DNA of 15,878 nt from an uncultured Alistipes sp. (GTDB lineage Bacteria; Bacteroidota; Bacteroidia; Bacteroidales; Rikenellaceae), in the NCBI GenBank assembly GCA_900770585.1, contig CAAGKW010000365.1, positions 1-15,878 of the forward strand, read 5' to 3'. Positions 1 through 15,878 of the stretch are shown one piece after another. Numbering within the stretch: the stretch's first letter is position 1; each line of letters starts with the position of its first letter. The translations under genes were made by a program, and so were the position numbers. A model generated the notes under the pieces. That model worked only from the letters and a program-made list of their open reading frames with translations. It did no database searches and had not been told where the DNA came from.

Positions 1-420
1 CACATCGAATGTCTCGGGCGACGAATCGCCGCGATGGGGCGTCGTTGACACAATGCGGTAGCCCGCGCCACGCAGAGCCTCGATAGCCTCCGCGGTCGAG
101 TGGTGACGGTGCAGGTCGATCCACTTATCCGTACCGCGAACGATATTCAGATTGGGGTTGAACTTGCAACGATCCTCGATCGTATGGATATCCTGCACAC
201 CGAACGCCTCGCAATGGCGCACCAGAGCGCTGGCATTCTGCGCGTGGTAGGTATTCTCCATACAGATAGTCATATAGCGAGTGCGGCTGTCGAGTGTACG
301 CGAGAGCACCTCGGCACGTTCATCGGTGATGAAATCGCGCAGATAGGCAATACGTTCGGCATACCATTCGTCCGAACGACCCGCTGAATCTCGCAACCAC
401 TTACTTTCGATATTTTTCAT
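1..420 (-). CDS. trmH: TrmH-type tRNA (guanosine-2'-O-)methyltransferase, 3' end cut by window edge
   Basis: The first 140 codons of a SpoU/TrmH-family RNA 2'-O-methyltransferase, read down from an ATG at 420 to the left edge with no stop. The segment RYMTICMENTYHAQNASALV followed by RHCEAFGVQDIHTIE is the characteristic start of the SpoU fold, with the conserved Glu-Asn...Asn-Ala-Ser-Ala stretch that binds the RNA substrate. TrmH methylates the ribose of G18 in the tRNA D-loop, using S-adenosylmethionine. The knotted SAM-binding motifs 2 and 3 should lie beyond the edge and cannot be checked. The ATG lies 20 bases inside the end of rsgA, so the gene is probably the third of a cvpA-rsgA-trmH operon and may be translationally coupled. 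The family is clear; the exact target (tRNA G18 or another nucleotide) is inferred. Confidence 0.85.
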   Translation of the reverse strand, partial: MKNIESKWLRDSAGRSDEWYAERIAYLRDFITDERAEVLSRTLDSRTRYMTICMENTYHAQNASALVRHCEAFGVQDIHTIEDRCKFNPNLNIVRGTDKWIDLHRHHSTAEAIEALRGAGYRIVSTTPHRGDSSPETFDV

Positions 421-1327
421 CTTCGTCCAAAATTTTCAGATAACTTTCGTAGCGCTCGACGGCTATGCGACCCTCCCTAACCGCCTCAACCACAGCACAT
501 CGCGGCTCGTGAGTATGGGTGCAGTTATAGAATTGGCACCCCTCGGCCTCGCGCATCATCTCGGGGAAGTAGTGCCACAACTCCTCGTCGGCAATATCGA
601 TCAGACCAAAGCCCTTGATACCCGGCGTGTCGATCACCGCACCACCCGACGGCAGAGGATACATCTGCGAGAAGGTGGTCGTGTGCTTACCCTTCTGGTG
701 CGCCTCCGAGATTGCGCCCGTACGAATGTCGATCGAAGGCTCTACCGCGCCAACCAGCGTCGATTTGCCCACGCCCGAATTACCCGACACGAGCGTCGTG
801 CGCCCTGCCAGCAGTTCGCGCACCTCATCGACACCCTCGCCCGAGGTTGCCGAGCACTCGATAATGCGGTAGCCCGCCAAGGTGTATATCTGCTTGAACG
901 CCGCGAGCATCTCGGGCTCGGTGCGTGCCAAGTCAATCTTATTCAACACGATAGTTGCGGGCACACGATAGGCCTCGCACGTAACCAGAAAGCGGTCGAT
1001 GAACTCCACATTGGTCGTGGGCGAGAACAACGTCGCCACCAACATCGCCTGATCGATATTTGCGGCTATGATATGCGACTCCTTCGACAGATTCGACGCA
1101 CGGCGAATGATATAGTTGCGGCGCGGAGCGATCTCCTCAATCAGCCAGCCACCCGTCTGGTCGCACTCGCACTCCACGCGATCACCCACCACAACGGGCG
1201 AAGTCGAGCGCACGCCCTTCAAGCGCAAACGACCGCGAACACGACAACGCAACTGCTCGCCGCTGTCGCTCAGCACATCGTACCAACTACCCGTAGCACG
1301 AATGACAACACCCTCGACCCTACTCAT
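401..1327 (-). CDS. rsgA: Ribosome small subunit-dependent GTPase A (RsgA)
   Basis: A circularly permuted GTPase that checks late 30S ribosome maturation in the cytoplasm. The order of motifs is diagnostic: an N-terminal OB-fold (about residues 3-70), then NKID (129-132, G4), the P-loop GNSGVGKST (182-190, G1), GKHTTT (213-218, switch I), DTPG (233-236, G3), and a C-terminal zinc knuckle with C264, C269, H271 and C277 spaced C-x4-C-x-H-x5-C. The 308-residue length is normal. I chose the ATG at 1327 over an in-frame TTG at 1357: the alternative adds a poor N-terminus, whereas the ATG starts directly at the OB-fold and overlaps the cvpA stop in the 8-base ATGAGTAG arrangement. The sequence just before it, GAAGG, could act as a weak ribosome binding site. 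Nothing in the gene looks broken. Confidence 0.96.
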   Translation of the reverse strand: MSRVEGVVIRATGSWYDVLSDSGEQLRCRVRGRLRLKGVRSTSPVVVGDRVECECDQTGGWLIEEIAPRRNYIIRRASNLSKESHIIAANIDQAMLVATLFSPTTNVEFIDRFLVTCEAYRVPATIVLNKIDLARTEPEMLAAFKQIYTLAGYRIIECSATSGEGVDEVRELLAGRTTLVSGNSGVGKSTLVGAVEPSIDIRTGAISEAHQKGKHTTTFSQMYPLPSGGAVIDTPGIKGFGLIDIADEELWHYFPEMMREAEGCQFYNCTHTHEPRCAVVEAVREGRIAVERYESYLKILDEDEKYRK

Positions 1328-1871
1328 CGCCTTCGTCGTTAGTAGTTTGATTCTCAATATCTTCGATCGGAGTATCGGTGTGCAGGGCTCTCACCTTATC
1401 GCGCACGTGGTCGAACAGCGGGAAGATCTTGGTCGAGAAGTTGCGCAGGGGCATATATCCGCGCGATGACTCGATTCGTTCCTTGCTGATCAGCACGTTA
1501 TTGACGTTCACCGAGTCGATTGCCGCGATGATCAGGCTCACGATTACTGCCGATTTGAGCACCGACACAACGGCACCCAGCACCGAGTCAAAGAAGCCTA
1601 AACCCGTCATACGGAACACACCGCGCAACAGACGGCTACCGACCGTGATCACAATGATCGTCACTACCAGCACCGTGACAAATCCGGCCACCGAAGCCTC
1701 TGCTCCGTGCATACCGAACCACGCACCCACGTGGTCGGCCTGCTGGAATGCCAGCCACACGCCGATCACCAATCCTACAACGCCTCCAACCTGCACCAGC
1801 AGACCGTCGCGAATACCCTCATAAACAGCCCAAGCGGCTATGACCAACAGAATGATATCTATGATGTTCAT
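1320..1871 (-). CDS. cvpA: CvpA family inner-membrane protein
   Basis: A 183-residue membrane protein starting MNIIDIILLVIAAWAVYEGI, with about four hydrophobic segments (roughly residues 2-20, 25-42, 62-85 and 100-120) and a polar C-terminal tail rich in Asp and Glu. This layout, and the motif Y-x-G-x-x-x-G-L between the first two segments, matches the CvpA family (named after colicin V production), which is widespread and linked to envelope robustness; the molecular function is not settled. An upstream in-frame start at 1907 is possible but adds a polar extension that spoils the typical N-terminus, so the ATG at 1871 is preferred. It is the first gene of the minus-strand cvpA-rsgA-trmH run and is divergent from the GH2 gene across about 90 bp. 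I found no convincing TAnnTTTG element for it in that gap. Confidence 0.85.
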   Translation of the reverse strand: MNIIDIILLVIAAWAVYEGIRDGLLVQVGGVVGLVIGVWLAFQQADHVGAWFGMHGAEASVAGFVTVLVVTIIVITVGSRLLRGVFRMTGLGFFDSVLGAVVSVLKSAVIVSLIIAAIDSVNVNNVLISKERIESSRGYMPLRNFSTKIFPLFDHVRDKVRALHTDTPIEDIENQTTNDEGDE

Positions 1872-1935
1872 CGTCAAAAATGGTTTACAATTTGTTGTTT
1901 TGAGCACGAATTTAGCATTTTTTTTCGTTTATTCG

Positions 1936-1943
1936 TATATTTG
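1936..1943 (+). promoter_or_regulatory. Bacteroidota -7 promoter element for the GH2 gene
   Basis: TATATTTG fits the Bacteroidota -7 consensus TAnnTTTG exactly. A TTTA at 1911-1914 lies 21 bases upstream and could be a -33 element (one mismatch to TTTG). The predicted start near 1950 leaves a leader of roughly 13 nt before the ATG at 1963. This is sequence matching only. Confidence 0.5.
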
Positions 1944-1962: not shown

Positions 1963-3975
1963 ATGAAACGCTATATACTTGTATTACTGACACTTATCCT
2001 CTCTTTTGAAATTTCGGCACGTGAGGTCTACACGCTCAATACCGGCTGGCGATTCTTCTATGGCAACGCCGTGAGTAGCGACAACGCACGACAGGTGACA
2101 CTGCCCCACGTCTGGAACACCGACGGCGACCAGCAGCACACCTTGGGTAACTATATGCGCTCGCTCGATGTGCCCTCGGAGTGGCAAGGACAGCGTATCT
2201 TTATCCGTTTCTATGGCGCTGCGTCGGTGGCCGATCTCTCGGTCAACAGCCGCTACGTAGGCACTCATCGCGGTGCGGGTACGGCATTCACATTCGAAAT
2301 CACCGACTACGTTCGTTACGGTATGCCCAACTCGATTCGCGTGCAGGTCGACAACGCACAGCGAAGCGATCTGTTTCCACTGACACAAGAGGAGAACCGC
2401 TATGGCGGTCTGCATCGAGGTGTGGAGCTGATCGTGACCGATCGCGTGGCAGTATCGCCACTCCACTATTCAACTGACGGAGTGTTTGTTACACCCTCGA
2501 AGATAAGCACCGAGAGCGTCGAAGGCAAGGTTACGGTCCACATCGCAACCGACCGTCGTGACCGCCCCGCAAGCGTCCAAATGGCAATCCTCTCGCCCAC
2601 GCTCGATACGGTTTTCATCGACAATCTGCGCACGAAGATCGACGGCAAGAGCGCCCATACGACCATCGACGTTCCGTTCTCGCTCGACCGACCTCAGCTG
2701 TGGGGTGCAGAGATGGGTGAACAGCCGCTCTATACCGTTGTCGCAAAGGTGGCTACGGGTATGACCACCGACTCGGTAGCGGTAAAGACAGGTTTCCGTT
2801 CGATCACCATCGGTGACGACCACCTGATCCGCGTGAACAATCGCCCGCGCCGTATCAAAGGTGTAGCGCTCTATGGCGATCGCGCGGGCGTCGGCTCAGC
2901 CATTCAGCCCTGCCACGTCGATGAAGATATGGCTCTGATCGAGGAGATAGGTGCAAATCTGGTGCGTATGGTGACCTACCCCGCTGCTCCCGCCTACCTT
3001 GACGAGTGCGACCGTCGTGGCATTGGCGTTTGGTGCGACATACCGTTGATCAATTCGCCATTCCTGGCCGATGTGCCCTACACCACCTCGCCCGCGCTGG
3101 CAGAAAATGGTCGTGAGCAGCTGCGCGAGATCATCGCTCAGAACTACAACCGCCCCTCGGTGATGTTGTGGGGAATATTCTCGAAGTTGGTTGTGCCGGG
3201 TGACGACCCGCGAGCCTATATCCGCGAACTCAATACGTTGGCACACAAACTCGACGCCTCGCGTCCGACTGTCGCCGTAAGCAACCAGGACGGTGACATC
3301 AACTTCATCACCGATATGATCGTCTGGCACCAAACGCTCGGCTGGCAATCGGGTGATGTTCAAGACGTTCAGGTCTGGAAAGAGCAGCTGCGCGAAGGTT
3401 GGAGCAACCTGCGCTCGGGCCTGACCTACTCGGCCGGTGGCTCGCCCCAACATCAAGACAGCTTGACCGTTCGTCCGCGTCTGGACCGCAATTGGCACCC
3501 CGAGCGTTGGCAGACTATTTTCCACGAGAGTTATATGCGCACGGCAGGCAACGACCCGCTGTTCTGGGGCGTTGTGGCGGGCAATATGTTCGATTTCGGA
3601 TCGGTGCGTCAGGCTCATATCGACGGTAGCGAGGTGAATGACCACGGTCTGGTCAGCTACGACCGATCGACCCGCAAGGACGCGTTCTATATCTACAAGG
3701 CTGCGTGGAATCACTCGCAACCCTTTGTTCACATCGCCGAGAAGCGTTGGTCAACGCGCGAGAATCCCGAGCAGACCATACGTGTCTACTCAAATCAACA
3801 ACAGATTGAATTGATTGTCAATGGTTCGTCGCGCGGAGTGATGGAGTCCACCGACGGCATCTTCATTTGGGACAAGGTGGCTCTCAATGCAGGTTCGAAC
3901 ACCATCGAGGCCGTTTCGCCCGACTCACCCTACTCGGATCACACGACAATTATCGTAGGCAAGAGCGCAAGATAG
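1963..3975 (+). CDS. Secreted glycoside hydrolase family 2 protein, probably a pseudo-enzyme
   Basis: A 670-residue protein with a signal peptide (about 1-19, cut after FEISA). In order it has a GH2 sugar-binding jelly-roll domain (about 20-190), an immunoglobulin-like domain (190-290), a TIM barrel (295-575) and a C-terminal Ig-like domain (590-668). The architecture and many barrel segments (HVDEDMALIEEIGANLVRM, AGGS..QHQDSL, NMFDFG, DHGLVSYDR, KDAFYIYK) match Bacteroidota GH2 beta-galactosidases. The acid/base Asn-Glu of the usual WG-x-x-NE motif is instead Ser-Lys (K408), and the nucleophile Glu of SEYGAGGS is Thr (T488). The conserved His after KGV is Tyr (Y304), the His of AHY is Thr (T338), and the Trp of WNMFDF is Gly (G540). 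The reading frame is otherwise intact. It may be a carbohydrate-binding or structural protein rather than a hydrolase. I start it at the ATG at 1963 because the upstream in-frame start (1840) would precede the promoter and bury the signal peptide. Confidence 0.9.
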   Translation: MKRYILVLLTLILSFEISAREVYTLNTGWRFFYGNAVSSDNARQVTLPHVWNTDGDQQHTLGNYMRSLDVPSEWQGQRIFIRFYGAASVADLSVNSRYVGTHRGAGTAFTFEITDYVRYGMPNSIRVQVDNAQRSDLFPLTQEENRYGGLHRGVELIVTDRVAVSPLHYSTDGVFVTPSKISTESVEGKVTVHIATDRRDRPASVQMAILSPTLDTVFIDNLRTKIDGKSAHTTIDVPFSLDRPQLWGAEMGEQPLYTVVAKVATGMTTDSVAVKTGFRSITIGDDHLIRVNNRPRRIKGVALYGDRAGVGSAIQPCHVDEDMALIEEIGANLVRMVTYPAAPAYLDECDRRGIGVWCDIPLINSPFLADVPYTTSPALAENGREQLREIIAQNYNRPSVMLWGIFSKLVVPGDDPRAYIRELNTLAHKLDASRPTVAVSNQDGDINFITDMIVWHQTLGWQSGDVQDVQVWKEQLREGWSNLRSGLTYSAGGSPQHQDSLTVRPRLDRNWHPERWQTIFHESYMRTAGNDPLFWGVVAGNMFDFGSVRQAHIDGSEVNDHGLVSYDRSTRKDAFYIYKAAWNHSQPFVHIAEKRWSTRENPEQTIRVYSNQQQIELIVNGSSRGVMESTDGIFIWDKVALNAGSNTIEAVSPDSPYSDHTTIIVGKSAR

Positions 3976-4603
3976 TCGTTGCCGCAGGTCCCTCGCAGAA
4001 CAGCAGATCGAGGATCGAAATGTTGGGTGCGAACGGTGCACGATCGGCAAAGACCTGACAATAGGGCTGAGCCGCGAATCGTTCGTCGGCCATTGCCAAA
4101 CGTGGCTTGGGCGAGAAGGCTCCTCGCAGATCGTAGTCGAAGGTAGCCGTTGCCTCGGCATTAATCCAGCGCTCGCTGATATTCAGCTCCTTACCTATGC
4201 CCAACGCACGCATTGCCGTGTGGCAGAGATCTCTATTCCAATCCACCAGAAATTCGTACGATCGCTCAAAAAACGGAGCGAACTCCTCGCCATAAAAGTC
4301 GAAATAGGGCGATGATTTGTAGGCCGAGAGTATCGACACCCAATGCTGGTGCTGCCAACGTTTCGAGTAGTCGATACGCACGTCGCGCATCTTCATTCGC
4401 GGGCGGTTGGCATTGGCCACCTGCACCGTCAGCGGCATCAACCCATTGGCCGCCGCAATGACCGTACGGTTGCGGTAGCTCTGTTTGAGGTAGTATTCGT
4501 CGATGTCGATCACGCAATCGTCCACCAACATATGTGCAAACCACTGAACATTACCCAGATAGGTCAGCGGGAGTATCGTTCGTGCGCTCATCTCGTTACT
4601 CAT
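3950..4603 (-). CDS. WbqC-like family protein
   Basis: A 217-residue soluble protein. The N-terminus LPLTYLGNVQWFAHML, the Asp-rich DDCVIDIDEYYLKQSYRNR, and the later LTVQV...RDVRIDYSKRWQHQHW match the WbqC-like family, named after a gene in O-antigen clusters and common in Bacteroidota. The biochemical role is not firmly established; a link to surface glycan synthesis is suggested for some members only. The start ATG at 4603 overlaps the ispG stop by 8 bases (ATGAGTAA), so it is very likely co-transcribed with ispG and translationally coupled. An alternative ATG lies four codons further in (4591). Its last 26 bases overlap the convergent GH2 gene, leaving no room for a terminator between them. 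Confidence 0.85.
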   Translation of the reverse strand: MSNEMSARTILPLTYLGNVQWFAHMLVDDCVIDIDEYYLKQSYRNRTVIAAANGLMPLTVQVANANRPRMKMRDVRIDYSKRWQHQHWVSILSAYKSSPYFDFYGEEFAPFFERSYEFLVDWNRDLCHTAMRALGIGKELNISERWINAEATATFDYDLRGAFSPKPRLAMADERFAAQPYCQVFADRAPFAPNISILDLLFCEGPAATTILRSCLR

Positions 4604-6134
4604 TTTGTGAGGGTTCGACCCAGCGTCCGTCGGCCTTGATCAGCGCAATCAGGCGATCGAGAGCCTCCGTCTGCGGGATATTGCGCTCGACAATCTCGCG
4701 ACCACGATAGAGCGTAATGCGCTCGGGCGCCGCACCCACATATCCATAATCGGCATCGGCCATCTCGCCCGGACCATTCACGATGCAGCCCATAACGCCA
4801 ATCTTCAAATCCTTCAAATGCGACGTGGCGGCTTTGATCTTCGCAAGGATCGATTGCAGGTCGTAGAGCGTGCGACCACACGACGGGCAAGCGATATACT
4901 CGGTGCGCGAGAATCGCACACGTGCCGCCTGCATAATCATCAGCTCCAACTCCTTGATCTGCTCCTTCGAGAACTGCGGGGCATCGATCCAAATGCCGTC
5001 AGCCAATCCGTCAAGCAACATCACACCCATATCGGCCGCAGCCTTCACGGCCAGCGTTTCGAAATCCGTGTCATCATATCGGCGGTGGATCACCACGGGC
5101 GTATCGTCCTCAATGTCCAGAATTGCCGAACGCCACTCGGCTACGGGGTTCTTCGAAACTGCATCGGCAACAAATATATCCAACTCATTATCACCTAATT
5201 CCGAATGGGTTACGGGCACCTGATCGCCACCTACGCAACCCACACGGCGGGTCGTACGACGGCGATATTCATAGGGCGAGAAACGCTCCTCGGCAACCTC
5301 AAATTCGCCCTCACGATCGGTGAAATAGTCGGCCAACATCTTGGCCACGGGGATCTCGTTTTCGGGGTCCTCGGTCAGCGACACACGGATCGTATCGCCC
5401 ACACCATCAGCCAACAACGCACCGATACCTACGGCACTCTTCACGCGACCCTCCGTGCCGTCGCCCGCCTCGGTTACGCCCAGATGGATCGGGAAATCCA
5501 TCGCCTCCTCGCGCATTGCGGCAACCAACAGACGGTAGGCATAGACCATCACACGCGTATTGCTCGACTTCATCGAAACGACCACCTGATCGAAGCCCTC
5601 CGAGCGGCACACACGCAGAAACTCCATAGCCGAAACGACCATACCCTCGGGCGTATCGCCCCACTCATCGAAGACGCGCTTGGCCAACGAGCCGTGATTG
5701 ACACCAATACGCAAAGCCACGCCACGCTGGCGACACTTCTCGATCAGTCGCTCCAAACGGCGATCGGTCGTGCGATAATTACCCGGGTTGATACGCACCT
5801 TATCGACCGACTCGGCAGCGATCTCTGCCACCTCGGGAACGAAGTGAATATCAGCCACAATGGCGGTCGAGAAACCCTCTGCGCGCAACTGAGCCACGAT
5901 GTTTCGCAGGTTTTCGCCCTCGCGCGGGCCCTGAGCCGTGAGGCGGACAATCGGACCGCCTGCACGATCTATACGTTCGATCTGAGCCACACTTGCGGCC
6001 GTATCGTTGGTGTCGGTGTTGGTCATCGACTGCACGGCAATGGGTGCCCCACCACCGATCTCGACGCTGCCGATACGCACGCTACAACTTGCGCGACGCT
6101 CGTATCGACCGAGTGAATTGCAATACTTTTTCAT
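4596..6134 (-). CDS. ispG: 4-hydroxy-3-methylbut-2-en-1-yl diphosphate synthase (IspG/GcpE)
   Basis: Catalyses the reductive conversion of 2-C-methyl-erythritol 2,4-cyclodiphosphate to HMBPP in the MEP pathway of isoprenoid synthesis, using a [4Fe-4S] cluster. The N-terminal TIM barrel (about residues 15-265) shows VQSMTNTDT, VRLTAQGPREGENL, VADIHF, KVRINPGN, IGVNHGSL and GVTEAGDG. The C-terminal domain carries the cluster ligands CPSC (C416, C419) and the GCIVNGPGE motif (C450). Between them lies an insertion of about 130 residues (roughly 270-405), as in the three-domain IspG of plants and Bacteroidota. The 512-residue length is between the short E. coli type (about 370) and long Bacteroidota forms (about 600). 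It is first in an operon with wbqC and is preceded by a good promoter at 6168-6200. Confidence 0.97.
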   Translation of the reverse strand: MKKYCNSLGRYERRASCSVRIGSVEIGGGAPIAVQSMTNTDTNDTAASVAQIERIDRAGGPIVRLTAQGPREGENLRNIVAQLRAEGFSTAIVADIHFVPEVAEIAAESVDKVRINPGNYRTTDRRLERLIEKCRQRGVALRIGVNHGSLAKRVFDEWGDTPEGMVVSAMEFLRVCRSEGFDQVVVSMKSSNTRVMVYAYRLLVAAMREEAMDFPIHLGVTEAGDGTEGRVKSAVGIGALLADGVGDTIRVSLTEDPENEIPVAKMLADYFTDREGEFEVAEERFSPYEYRRRTTRRVGCVGGDQVPVTHSELGDNELDIFVADAVSKNPVAEWRSAILDIEDDTPVVIHRRYDDTDFETLAVKAAADMGVMLLDGLADGIWIDAPQFSKEQIKELELMIMQAARVRFSRTEYIACPSCGRTLYDLQSILAKIKAATSHLKDLKIGVMGCIVNGPGEMADADYGYVGAAPERITLYRGREIVERNIPQTEALDRLIALIKADGRWVEPSQNE

Positions 6135-9272: not shown

Positions 9273-10190
9273 ATGGAAGAGAACAATCGCAATTACGAAT
9301 ACGACGACGAACAGCAGCAGCCCGCTGTTGATAAGTCGATCAAGGGTTATCGAATGGTAATCTGCATTTTGGCCGTTATCCTTGTGGCCATTTCGGGTCT
9401 GTACTTCAAGATCCATCAGGACCAGAAGCGCGACTACCAGTTCCTCGAAATCGAGCGCGACTCGATCCAGAGCAACCTGGGCGTGCTGATGGAGGATTTC
9501 GACAACCTGCAAATCACCAACGACACCATCTCGCAGAATCTGGCAACGGAGCGTCTGCGTGCCGACTCACTGATGCAGCAGTTGCAGAAGGAACGCAACC
9601 TTTCGCTGCGTAAAATCAAGCAGTATGAGAAGCAGGTGACGATGTTGCGTGGCATTATGGAGGGCTACTTGAAGCAGATTGACTCGCTCAACACGCTTAA
9701 CAAGAAGCTCATCAACGAGAATGTCGACTACCGTAAGCAGGTGGCAAGCCAGACGCTGCGCGCCGATATGGCCGAGGAGAAGGCTGCCGAGCTCGATACC
9801 AAGGTGCGTCAGGGTGCCGTAGTTCGCGCTCGCGACATCGTGCTCTCGACCCTCAACGAGAATGGCAAGGTGGTTACCCGTGCGGCACGTGCAGCACGTT
9901 TGAAGGTCGATTTCGTGCTGTCGGCCAATGAGTTGGCTAATCCCGGTGAGCGTACGGTCTATGTTCGTATCACCTCGCCCGACGGCTATCTGCTGACCAC
10001 CGACGCTGCGACGTTCGATTTCGAGGGCTCGCCCACGATCTACACCGCATCGCGTGAGGTCGACTACCAGAACGACGATCTGGACGTGGGTCTGTTCTAC
10101 AATGGCGACGGCATCACAGCGGGTAAATACGCGATCGAGGTCTATATGGACGGCATCAAGATCGGCTCGACCGAAACAATCCTCCGCTAA
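9273..10190 (+). CDS. Membrane-anchored coiled-coil protein, function unknown
   Basis: A 305-residue protein I recognise only as a conserved Bacteroidales-type hypothetical. It has an acidic, Gln-rich N-terminal tail (1-24), one transmembrane helix (about 28-46, MVICILAVILVAISGLYF), a long coiled coil (about 50-180, with repeated LxxExDSIQ, TERLRADSLMQQLQKE and QIDSLNTLNKKL heptads), and a beta-rich C-terminal domain (about 205-305) including VDFVLSANELANPGERTVYVR and GKYAIEVYMDGIKIGS. The predicted topology is a short cytoplasmic tail, with the coiled coil and beta domain in the periplasm. It has its own -7 element and a strong terminator, so it is probably a single-gene unit. It could be an envelope spacer or tether, or a partner of the division or peptidoglycan machinery; that is inference from shape and from the neighbouring amidase. 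Confidence 0.85.
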   Translation: MEENNRNYEYDDEQQQPAVDKSIKGYRMVICILAVILVAISGLYFKIHQDQKRDYQFLEIERDSIQSNLGVLMEDFDNLQITNDTISQNLATERLRADSLMQQLQKERNLSLRKIKQYEKQVTMLRGIMEGYLKQIDSLNTLNKKLINENVDYRKQVASQTLRADMAEEKAAELDTKVRQGAVVRARDIVLSTLNENGKVVTRAARAARLKVDFVLSANELANPGERTVYVRITSPDGYLLTTDAATFDFEGSPTIYTASREVDYQNDDLDVGLFYNGDGITAGKYAIEVYMDGIKIGSTETILR

Positions 10191-10247: not shown

Positions 10248-10252
10248 ATGCT

Positions 10253-10260
10253 TATATTTG
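10253..10260 (+). promoter_or_regulatory. -7 promoter element for the amidase operon
   Basis: TATATTTG is an exact TAnnTTTG match, 38 bases before the amidase ATG at 10299. Its -33 region would fall inside the terminator hairpin just upstream, where no TTTG is present. Confidence 0.5.
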
Positions 10261-10298
10261 TAGAGTGCAATGCAAACAAACTAAAAAAACATATCACA

Positions 10299-11999
10299 AT
10301 GAAACGAATCCTTATGCTTATGTGCGCCGTTGCAATGGCCGTAGTGCCCGCATCGGCTCAACGTCTTGAAATCGGTCGTGGCGAGCGCGCCACAACCCAA
10401 ACCGCACGCCACTCGATCACGGGTATTGCCGATCCCGACGCAACGCTCACGGTCAATGGCAAGCAGTTCACAGTCTATCCTACGGGCGGTTGGGCTGCCG
10501 AGGTGATGCTCGAAGAGGGCAAGAACACCGTATCGGTGGTTGCAGTTTCGAAGGCTGGTCGCGCCGAGAAGACATTCGACATCGAACTCACCCCACGCCC
10601 CGAGAAGGAGCCGCTCACGGGTGCAAAACTGATCGAGTGGGGCACCGTACCCGCTGACATCAAGGCTGTTACCGAGGGTGAGCGCGTGGCTCTGCGTGTA
10701 GTTGGCACACCTGGTTGCAAGGTGTCGATCGTAGGTGGTTGCGAACTGACCGAGGTTAAGGCGGGTGTTTATCAGGGTCTGATCACCGCCAAGAAGGGTT
10801 GCAAAGTGCTCAGCGAGCCGTTGCAGTTCAAAATCGAGGCCGAGGGTGAGTCGGCAACCTTCCCGATGAAGGATGCGATCAAGGTCATCGATCCCAATCA
10901 GCCCGTAATGTTGCGCACCGTAGGCGATCTGCCCTATCTGAACTATGGTTTGGGTACCGACCGTCTGGGTGGCTCGAAGATCGGTCACATCACCGAGGGT
11001 ATCCTGCTCGAAGCTGTTGGCGAGGTGGGCAACCAATACAAAGTTCGTCTGTCGAAGAACCGCACCGCCTACATTCCCAAGTCGTGTGCCGAGGTGCAGC
11101 CCGCAGGTACTCTGCCCGCGCAGTCGCTGGTCGGCTCGTGGAGCGTTCGTGGTGGCAAAGAGGCTGACGTAGTGCGTGTTTCGCTCACAGAGCGTCTGCC
11201 TTTCGCTACATTCCACCAGATGGATCCCGCACGTGTTGTGGTTGATATTTTCGGTGCTGTTGCCAACACTTCGTGGCTGACCCAATACCCCGAAACTAAG
11301 AATGCGATCAAGAGCGTCGATTACGAGCAGGTCGAGGAGGATATCTTCCGTGTGATCATTACGCTCGACCACAACGCACATTGGGGTCACTCGGTGAGCT
11401 ACGAGGGTAACTCGCTGGTTATCCGCGTCAAAGCTGCTCCGAAGGCTTCGTTGCGCGGTCTGCACGTCGGCATCGACGCTGGTCACGGTGGTCCGTACAA
11501 GGGCGCTGTTGGCGTTGCAGGTGTCGAAGAGAAGGACGTAAATCTTGACTTGGCACATATGCTGCGCAAGGAGCTCGAAAAGCGCGGTGCAAAGGTAACG
11601 ATGACCCGCACGGAGGACGTGAATGTCGATATGAGCGACCGCGTGCTGATGTTGCGCAAGGCCGATCCCAACCTGATGATCTCGATCCACTGCAACGCCG
11701 GTGGCTCGCCCTTGAAGCCCCTCGGCACAAGTACCTACTACCGTCACCCCGGTTTCCAGCCGCTGTCGGTAGCTGTTTTGAAGCGCGTTTTGGAGCTCGA
11801 TATGAACAACTTCGGCAACATCGGCAGCTTCAACTTTATCCTCAACTCGCCCTACGAATATCCCAATATGTTGCTCGAAACGTTGTTCATCTCGGCACCC
11901 GCTGAGGAGGCTCGTCTGGTCGACCCGAAGTTCCGCGCCGACCTGATCAACCGCGTTGTGAAGGGTTTGGAGGACTACCTGAAAGAGTACGCTAAGTAA
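10299..11999 (+). CDS. N-acetylmuramoyl-L-alanine amidase (AMIN + Amidase_3)
   Basis: A secreted zinc hydrolase that cuts the amide bond between N-acetylmuramic acid and the stem peptide, normally to separate daughter cells. In its 566 residues it has a signal peptide (1-20, cleaved after ASA), an Ig-like segment (about 30-100), a less defined region containing an SH3-like stretch (about 200-265), an AMIN peptidoglycan-targeting domain (about 290-380, VRVSLTERLPFATFHQMDPARV-like beta strands), and the Amidase_3 catalytic domain (388-566). Zinc ligands H396 (DAGHGG), E411 (VEEKD) and H464 (SIHCNA) and the catalytic E527 (LLETLFIS) are all present. I used the ATG at 10299 because it starts the signal peptide; an upstream in-frame ATG at 10248 precedes the promoter. 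The PHP-domain gene follows after 12 bp, so the two probably form an operon. Confidence 0.94.
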   Translation: MKRILMLMCAVAMAVVPASAQRLEIGRGERATTQTARHSITGIADPDATLTVNGKQFTVYPTGGWAAEVMLEEGKNTVSVVAVSKAGRAEKTFDIELTPRPEKEPLTGAKLIEWGTVPADIKAVTEGERVALRVVGTPGCKVSIVGGCELTEVKAGVYQGLITAKKGCKVLSEPLQFKIEAEGESATFPMKDAIKVIDPNQPVMLRTVGDLPYLNYGLGTDRLGGSKIGHITEGILLEAVGEVGNQYKVRLSKNRTAYIPKSCAEVQPAGTLPAQSLVGSWSVRGGKEADVVRVSLTERLPFATFHQMDPARVVVDIFGAVANTSWLTQYPETKNAIKSVDYEQVEEDIFRVIITLDHNAHWGHSVSYEGNSLVIRVKAAPKASLRGLHVGIDAGHGGPYKGAVGVAGVEEKDVNLDLAHMLRKELEKRGAKVTMTRTEDVNVDMSDRVLMLRKADPNLMISIHCNAGGSPLKPLGTSTYYRHPGFQPLSVAVLKRVLELDMNNFGNIGSFNFILNSPYEYPNMLLETLFISAPAEEARLVDPKFRADLINRVVKGLEDYLKEYAK

Positions 12000-15855: not shown

Positions 15856-15878
15856 AGATCGGAAGAGCGTCGTGTAGG
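15856..15878 (+). other. Illumina TruSeq adapter contamination at the contig end
   Basis: The last 23 bases begin AGATCGGAAGAGCGTCGTGT and run to the end. This is the reverse complement of the Illumina TruSeq universal adapter end. It interrupts the PLP-enzyme frame immediately after the conserved SLPMPMVM, where a homologue would go on with small residues and not with RSEERRV. It is not biological sequence. Confidence 0.96.

Follow-up and report, generated by a model that had tools for sequence, protein, structure and literature searches.

The window, 15,878 nucleotides of a contig from an uncultured Alistipes sp., contains a GH2-fold gene whose four-domain product carries a putative export signal and has lost both catalytic glutamates and most of its substrate contacts, and which has descended vertically at a housekeeping locus. 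We consider it reasonably likely that the gene, orthologous to those of LacZ4-type beta-glucuronidases, has come to encode a pseudoenzyme in Rikenellaceae, with an exported, non-hydrolytic scaffold or partner-binding role. If so, the protein would not hydrolyse glycosides, would work outside the cytoplasm, and would use its retained fold and its outer surface more than its old pocket, a pocket that differs between lineages. The non-catalytic role would already have been present in the ancestor, because the catalytic residues were lost separately across branches while the gene was retained. The literature covered, with preprints and most subscription papers outside its scope, yielded no account of a Rikenellaceae GH2 protein devoid of catalysis. 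Pseudoglycosidases are already known; what appears new here is one derived from GH2 that is near-universal in a bacterial family, with intermediate stages preserved. The features of the gene and its neighbours are collected in Table 1. Rikenellaceae copies are referred to by clade (A, B or C), the window's protein lying in clade C.

Table 1. Positions in the window of the GH2-fold gene, its domains and altered residues, and the flanking genes
Feature	Position	Strand	Basis or remark
GH2-fold pseudo-beta-glucuronidase gene	1963..3975	+	Open frame, 670 aa plus stop; Pfam GH2 domains
Export signal, residues 1-19, non-lipoprotein type	1963..2019	+	Putative, from sequence
GH2_N domain, residues 45-157	2095..2433	+	Pfam PF02837
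GH2 Ig-like domain, residues 174-279	2482..2799	+	Pfam PF00703
TIM-barrel match, residues 286-478	2818..3396	+	Pfam PF02836
Y304 replacing active-site His	2872..2874	+	Column His in 96% of 27 active-type sequences
T338 replacing active-site His	2974..2976	+	Column His in 96% of 27 active-type sequences
S407-K408 replacing Asn-Glu (acid/base)	3181..3186	+	Asn 100%, Glu 100% in active-type sequences
T488 at nucleophile site, strand one residue short	3424..3426	+	Glu 100% in active-type sequences
G540 replacing active-site Trp	3580..3582	+	Column Trp in 92% of 27 active-type sequences
H561 replacing Lys of N-x-K motif	3643..3645	+	Alignment with active-type sequences
DUF4982 domain, residues 605-652	3775..3918	+	Pfam PF16355
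rsgA, upstream divergent neighbour	401-1357	-	Pfam RsgA_GTPase
cvpA, upstream divergent neighbour	1320-1907	-	Pfam Colicin_V
wbqC, downstream convergent neighbour	3950-4603	-	Pfam WbqC; 3' end overlaps GH2 gene by 26 bases
ispG, downstream convergent neighbour	4596-6134	-	Pfam GcpE

The first-pass annotation described a full-length, uninterrupted GH2 frame with a signal peptide and four domains, and all of these were recovered. The matches to PF02837 (48.1 bits), PF00703 (41.5 bits) and PF02836 (57.3 bits) are each above the curated cut-off and place the protein in GH2 by sequence; in an AlphaFold2 model, the TIM barrel extends to about residue 585. Signal cleavage would be expected between A19 and R20. 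A hydrophobic 9-mer is present in 332/333 clade C sequences with enough residues ahead of R20, and a Cys within three residues ahead of R20 was found in none of the 333. The sequence TATATTTG at window positions 1936-1943, 19 bases 5' of the start codon, fits the Bacteroidetes -7 promoter consensus, TAnnTTTG, and could be a chance match.

The best solved relatives were 5z1a, 3cmg (B. fragilis) and 8dhe (T. forsythia), with E values of 1.1e-144, 2.3e-144 and 3.1e-138, respectively; 5z1a and 8dhe carry beta-glucuronidase titles. The NCBIfam LacZ4 beta-glucuronidase model NF050095 matched residues 11-655 with 598.1 bits, below its cut-off of 950. The AlphaFold2 model, for which the input was an alignment of 39 sequences from the window's clade, had a pLDDT of 83.1 and a pTM of 0.86, and TM-scores of 0.88-0.90 to 8dhe and 5z1a at 35-36% identity. 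As modelled, the GH2 fold is intact. The protein thus resembles the LacZ4-type beta-glucuronidases of Bacteroidales in full-length sequence similarity and in the shared four-domain fold, but differs from them in lacking both Glu residues, the Asn, two His, the Tyr, the Trp and the Lys of the N-K motif, and in its shorter nucleophile strand.

Active-site columns were defined with 27 active-type sequences as the reference. The reported loss of the acid/base Glu to K408, in the motif FSKL, was confirmed, as was the occurrence of Y304, T338 and G540 at usual active-site positions. The nucleophile change had been read as Glu to Thr. T488 is indeed at that site, immediately preceding the conserved Tyr, but the strand reads GLT-YSAG in the window and GISEYGAG in active-type sequences; as it is one residue shorter, a residue has been deleted in addition to the substitution, and 'Glu to Thr' describes only part of the change. 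The deletion is present in all 342 clade C sequences and in none of the 23 from clades A and B. While every altered residue that had been named was correct, the list was incomplete: the acid/base Asn has become S407, and a Tyr, an Arg and an Asp of the active site have become T458, L303 and E143. The N-x-K motif, N559-D-H561 in the window, has its Lys in 92% of the 27 active-type sequences and in 10% of clade C. The roles of both catalytic glutamates and of the N-K motif, which contacts the uronic acid carboxylate, are described in PMC10535898. With K408 and T488, the protein has neither of the two glutamates that mark a GH2 enzyme and, with H561, it lacks the Lys that marks a beta-glucuronidase; the absence of catalytic residues together with purifying selection on the gene (see below) fits a pseudoglycosidase, a kind of protein rather than a sequence family, which would also be expected to hydrolyse nothing and to keep another function, for example binding.

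S407, K408 and T488 are each found in 100% of 34 sequences of the window's subclade, the farthest member of which, among the matches listed, is 57% identical to the window protein. Identical motifs in independent relatives rule out chance or sequencing error in the window. Across clade C, the acid/base site varies by subclade (L 39%, R 14%, K 11%, Q 7%, D 6%, E 6%).

Trees were computed with both catalytic windows removed. In a 94-row IQ-TREE analysis, active enzymes were outermost, followed by clade A (support 99) and then clade B (86) beside clade C (100). The order was identical in a 393-row FastTree analysis, run after 15 of 408 sequences had been set aside as partial or broken. In it, B (0.68) and C (0.52) were weakly supported; the value for C, against 100 in the smaller tree, counts against the explanation we favour. 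Clade A comprises two copies with FNEL and SEYG, seven that have lost the acid/base residue (FDQL) and kept the nucleophile, and one that has lost both residues. In clade B, one copy has both glutamates, ten have only the nucleophile and two have neither. Neither glutamate is present in 312/342 clade C sequences. A further 22/342 have Glu at the acid/base site but no nucleophile, and 8/342 have Glu immediately preceding the Tyr plus Arg at the acid/base site; these Glu-bearing sequences also weigh against the favoured explanation. On the 94-row tree, at least one change is needed for the deletion, three for the nucleophile and seven for the acid/base residue, a count that does not distinguish gains from losses. 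L061, the intact member of clade B, is on a long branch beside the longer one of L064, so its placement is unsure.

As reconstructed from the trees, the pattern shows a catalytic loss that was stepwise and repeated, and such repetition suggests that catalysis was dispensable in the ancestor, where the protein would have been kept for another role. It is conceivable, though we would put it somewhat below an even chance, that a scaffold role came first and catalysis was then dismantled in parallel, leaving a protein that is now a core non-catalytic envelope component of Rikenellaceae. Dismantling would usually have begun at the acid/base residue where intermediates survive, and the one-residue deletion in the nucleophile strand would have become fixed in the large clade to which Alistipes belongs.

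Three groups of sequences with partial sites were observed. The clade A copies with FDQL and SEYG (L058, L283, L285, L288, L290, L291 and L292) recall the Gln half-site of myrosinases (family GH1) and might still act on activated substrates. An FSEL/FTEM subclade (L306, L307, L310, L311, L313, L314, L316, L319, L321, L322, L324 and others) has the acid/base Glu without the preceding Asn or the nucleophile, and this Glu may have been either regained or retained. The eight clade C sequences with Glu-Tyr and Arg (L047, L134, L168, L190, L203, L223, L256 and P0069) perhaps have a secondary Glu-Arg pair.

An enzyme of different chemistry in the barrel would fit the 17/23 clade A/B copies that keep the nucleophile alone, a half-site like that of myrosinases, and the acids conserved near strand ends in clade C, such as D306 (99%) and D359 (94%). 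However, active enzymes also have acids in these two columns (Asp in 95%, Glu in 97%), subclades differ widely at the acid/base site, and a search of clade C for a new invariant acid pair found none. We regard a different chemistry as improbable.

Conservation of the pocket was compared with that of the scaffold. The mean entropy of 16 active-site columns against that elsewhere was 0.17 versus 1.01 in active enzymes, 1.68 versus 1.76 in clade C and 0.32 versus 0.57 in the window's subclade. The catalytic face, represented by a rule-based set of positions, was compared with the helices in pairs of matched overall identity (about 40-70%). Its conservation was higher by 0.16-0.23 among active enzymes, while for clade C the difference was -0.02 to +0.05, and -0.05 at about 30% identity. 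The window's subclade gave +0.08 for pairs about 60% identical and +0.05 for those about 70% identical. Clade C shows higher conservation of the N-terminal domain than of the barrel; active enzymes and the window's subclade do not. Sixty positions are at least 97% conserved in clade C, among which C349, Y524 and D468 occur in fewer than half of active-type sequences. Judged from these alignments, the pattern across the family speaks for a role of the scaffold or surface, the pocket differing from lineage to lineage.

The first idea of the first-pass annotation, a protein that binds but does not cleave glycans, corresponds to a lectin-like protein whose remodelled pocket would hold a glycan or another small ligand, not the same one in every lineage; we treat this alternative as unlikely but worth serious attention. 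According to PMC7828330, pseudoglycosidases are known as a kind and some bind glycans. The conserved pocket of the window's subclade, where the N-terminal domain is not conserved above the barrel, fits a pocket ligand there and runs counter to the explanation we prefer. In clade C as a whole, however, pocket columns are at background and the uronic-acid recognition residues are largely lost. As these residues are lost and the face is no more conserved than the helices, binding of a glycan there is just one of several options; because pocket conservation in the window's subclade is above average, the option stays open there, and a specific pocket ligand in that subclade is quite possible. The chitinase-like proteins (GH18) and Klotho (GH1), according to PMC7828330, likewise have a glycosidase fold without catalytic residues and another role, but belong to other families and hosts, whereas the present protein is GH2, near-universal in a bacterial family and preserved with its intermediates.

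A first protein search returned 958 homologues, of which the best 120 were inspected. At E ≤ 1e-50, 263/268 Rikenellaceae genomes had a match, including one (G025) that matches only via a distant GH2 gene with 31% identity. Loci were fetched from nearly all matching genomes (334 loci, 331 with a hit, 293 distinct frames), and a copy was assigned to a clade if it spanned 75% or more of the alignment. Classifiable copies were present in 252/268 genomes (229 clade C, 13 clade B and 10 clade A), and just three of these genomes (G213, G216 and G194) keep both glutamates. Two of the classified copies are broken (G022 and G210) and some are truncated by contig ends. The other 16 genomes comprise two without a locus and 14 that are unclassified: seven with fragments, most at contig ends (G051, G052, G102, G108, G118, G254 and G264), three with broken copies (G209, G211 and G263) and four with distant or short hits only (G025, G060, G206 and G214). 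A wbqC hit is also absent from G025, G060, G108 and G236, as would be expected if the assemblies lack this region. The control was a search at E ≤ 1e-100 of 393 genomes drawn across the order Bacteroidales. Five of the 20 matches were Rikenellaceae already counted, leaving 15 among at most 388 other genomes, and all 15 homologues from other families retain both glutamates. The protein is thus near-universal in Rikenellaceae and sporadic elsewhere, and within this sample catalysis has been lost in Rikenellaceae only. Neither this extent of the loss nor its stepwise course was visible to the first-pass annotation.

Copies of different clades (A, B or C) do not occur together in any genome of the classified set, and a single match at E ≤ 1e-50 was counted by hand, with only the best candidates scored, in 224/263 matching genomes. 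One genome (G067) has two equal matches, and G221 and G199 additionally carry an active-type copy (L301 and L302). Duplication as the driver of the change is therefore unsupported. Glycosidase pseudoenzymes of beetles reportedly serve as decoys. A decoy or inhibitor-binding protein that shields active glycosidases is a conceivable counterpart here, and pseudoenzymes of another glycoside hydrolase family do matter in beetles according to PMC6549527 and PMC8213348. However, in 4/14 Rikenellaceae genomes searched with the beta-glucuronidase model NF007538 (E ≤ 1e-20; assembly completeness unstated), namely G001, G002, G004 and G230, the GH2-fold gene is the sole match, leaving no other to protect, and we rate this role as very improbable. 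Several of the 14 genomes do possess other GH2 genes. The beetle polygalacturonase pseudoenzymes (GH28) are comparable as glycosidase pseudoenzymes said to matter (PMC6549527), but are there described as gene-duplication products in multigene families, whereas here no genome mixes clades.

The locus was compared across the family. Of the window's neighbours, rsgA and/or cvpA were found upstream within 8 kb at 110/126 clade C loci with a flank of at least 2.5 kb, and wbqC and/or ispG downstream at 115/137 with at least 1.5 kb. None of these neighbours was found at 21 clade A/B loci or at the broken, unclassified copy of G211, where flanks ranged from <1 kb to 8 kb; by eye, from first residues, some clade A/B-type loci adjoin era-, ispD- or PBP2/rodA-like genes. 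The identities of the GH2 protein and of neighbouring products were correlated in rank for rsgA (0.764, 132 loci), ispG (0.860, 77 loci), recG (0.845, 48 loci) and wbqC (0.750, 173 loci), and 0/200 permutations gave values as high, as expected for vertical descent. Given its orientation, away from cvpA and towards wbqC, the gene probably has a transcript of its own. An enzyme of a polysaccharide utilisation locus was rejected: the neighbours include rsgA, cvpA, wbqC, ispG and recG, and none of 10 window proteins matched SusC or SusD.

Purifying selection on the gene is strong. When the window was compared with L001, L002, L003 and L004, dN/dS was 0.097, 0.122, 0.150 and 0.101, respectively. 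Among clade C pairs with identities of 85-98.5% and dS of 0.05-1.5, the median was 0.100 in 28 independent pairs and the maximum 0.307 over all 54. Values of about 0.10, far from the value near 1 expected of a decaying gene, rule out random decay and, with orthologues across the family, uphold the first-pass annotation on this point; its proposal of a pseudo-glycosidase is well supported by the same evidence, by the confident GH2 fold and by the lack of a new acid pair. Of eight copies inspected for reported stops or splits, three were intact and five broken (G210, G211, G263, G022 and G209), which is a minimum figure. At least five broken copies indicate that the gene is dispensable in places and not essential everywhere; they count against the favoured explanation and are what a decaying relic retained by chance would leave, but given the dN/dS values and the presence of the gene in nearly every Rikenellaceae genome, we consider a relic the least credible reading, with hardly any likelihood. 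Internal TAG codons were seen in L308, L351 and L352 (two of them in G263, others in G210 and G211), at positions where relatives have no stop. These are probably due to decay or assembly error; recoding of TAG in these relatives was set aside, as adjacent long frames are open in L351 and gene decay or error is likelier.

Databases label clade C proteins beta-galactosidase (e.g. P0028 and P0034), and reviews name Alistipes among beta-glucuronidase producers (PMC10535898 and PMC13233536). Gene-based surveys may therefore wrongly credit Alistipes with glycosidases, although other GH2 genes exist in several Rikenellaceae. Should the scaffold role indeed have come first, gene-based counts of Alistipes beta-galactosidases and beta-glucuronidases would include a dead enzyme in most species. 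The findings point to an unrecognised exported protein kept by nearly every member of the family, and the coexistence of enzyme-to-pseudoenzyme stages within one bacterial family makes the order of events testable.

Elsewhere in the window, cvpA is fast-evolving beside a slow rsgA (79% versus 98% identity between the window and L001). Positions 9273-10190 encode a conserved, unnamed protein of 305 aa without a Pfam match, which is 97-98% identical in L001-L003 and 52-60% identical in most other loci that have it. An N-acetylmuramoyl-L-alanine amidase with an AMIN domain and a Glucodextran_B match near its N-terminus is encoded at 10248-11999. The last 23 bases (15856-15878) start with AGATCGGAAGAGC, which matches the first bases of the Illumina adapter exactly; the contig thus probably ends on the right in an untrimmed-adapter artefact, and the last gene of the window (from 14989) is cut by this adapter-like end.
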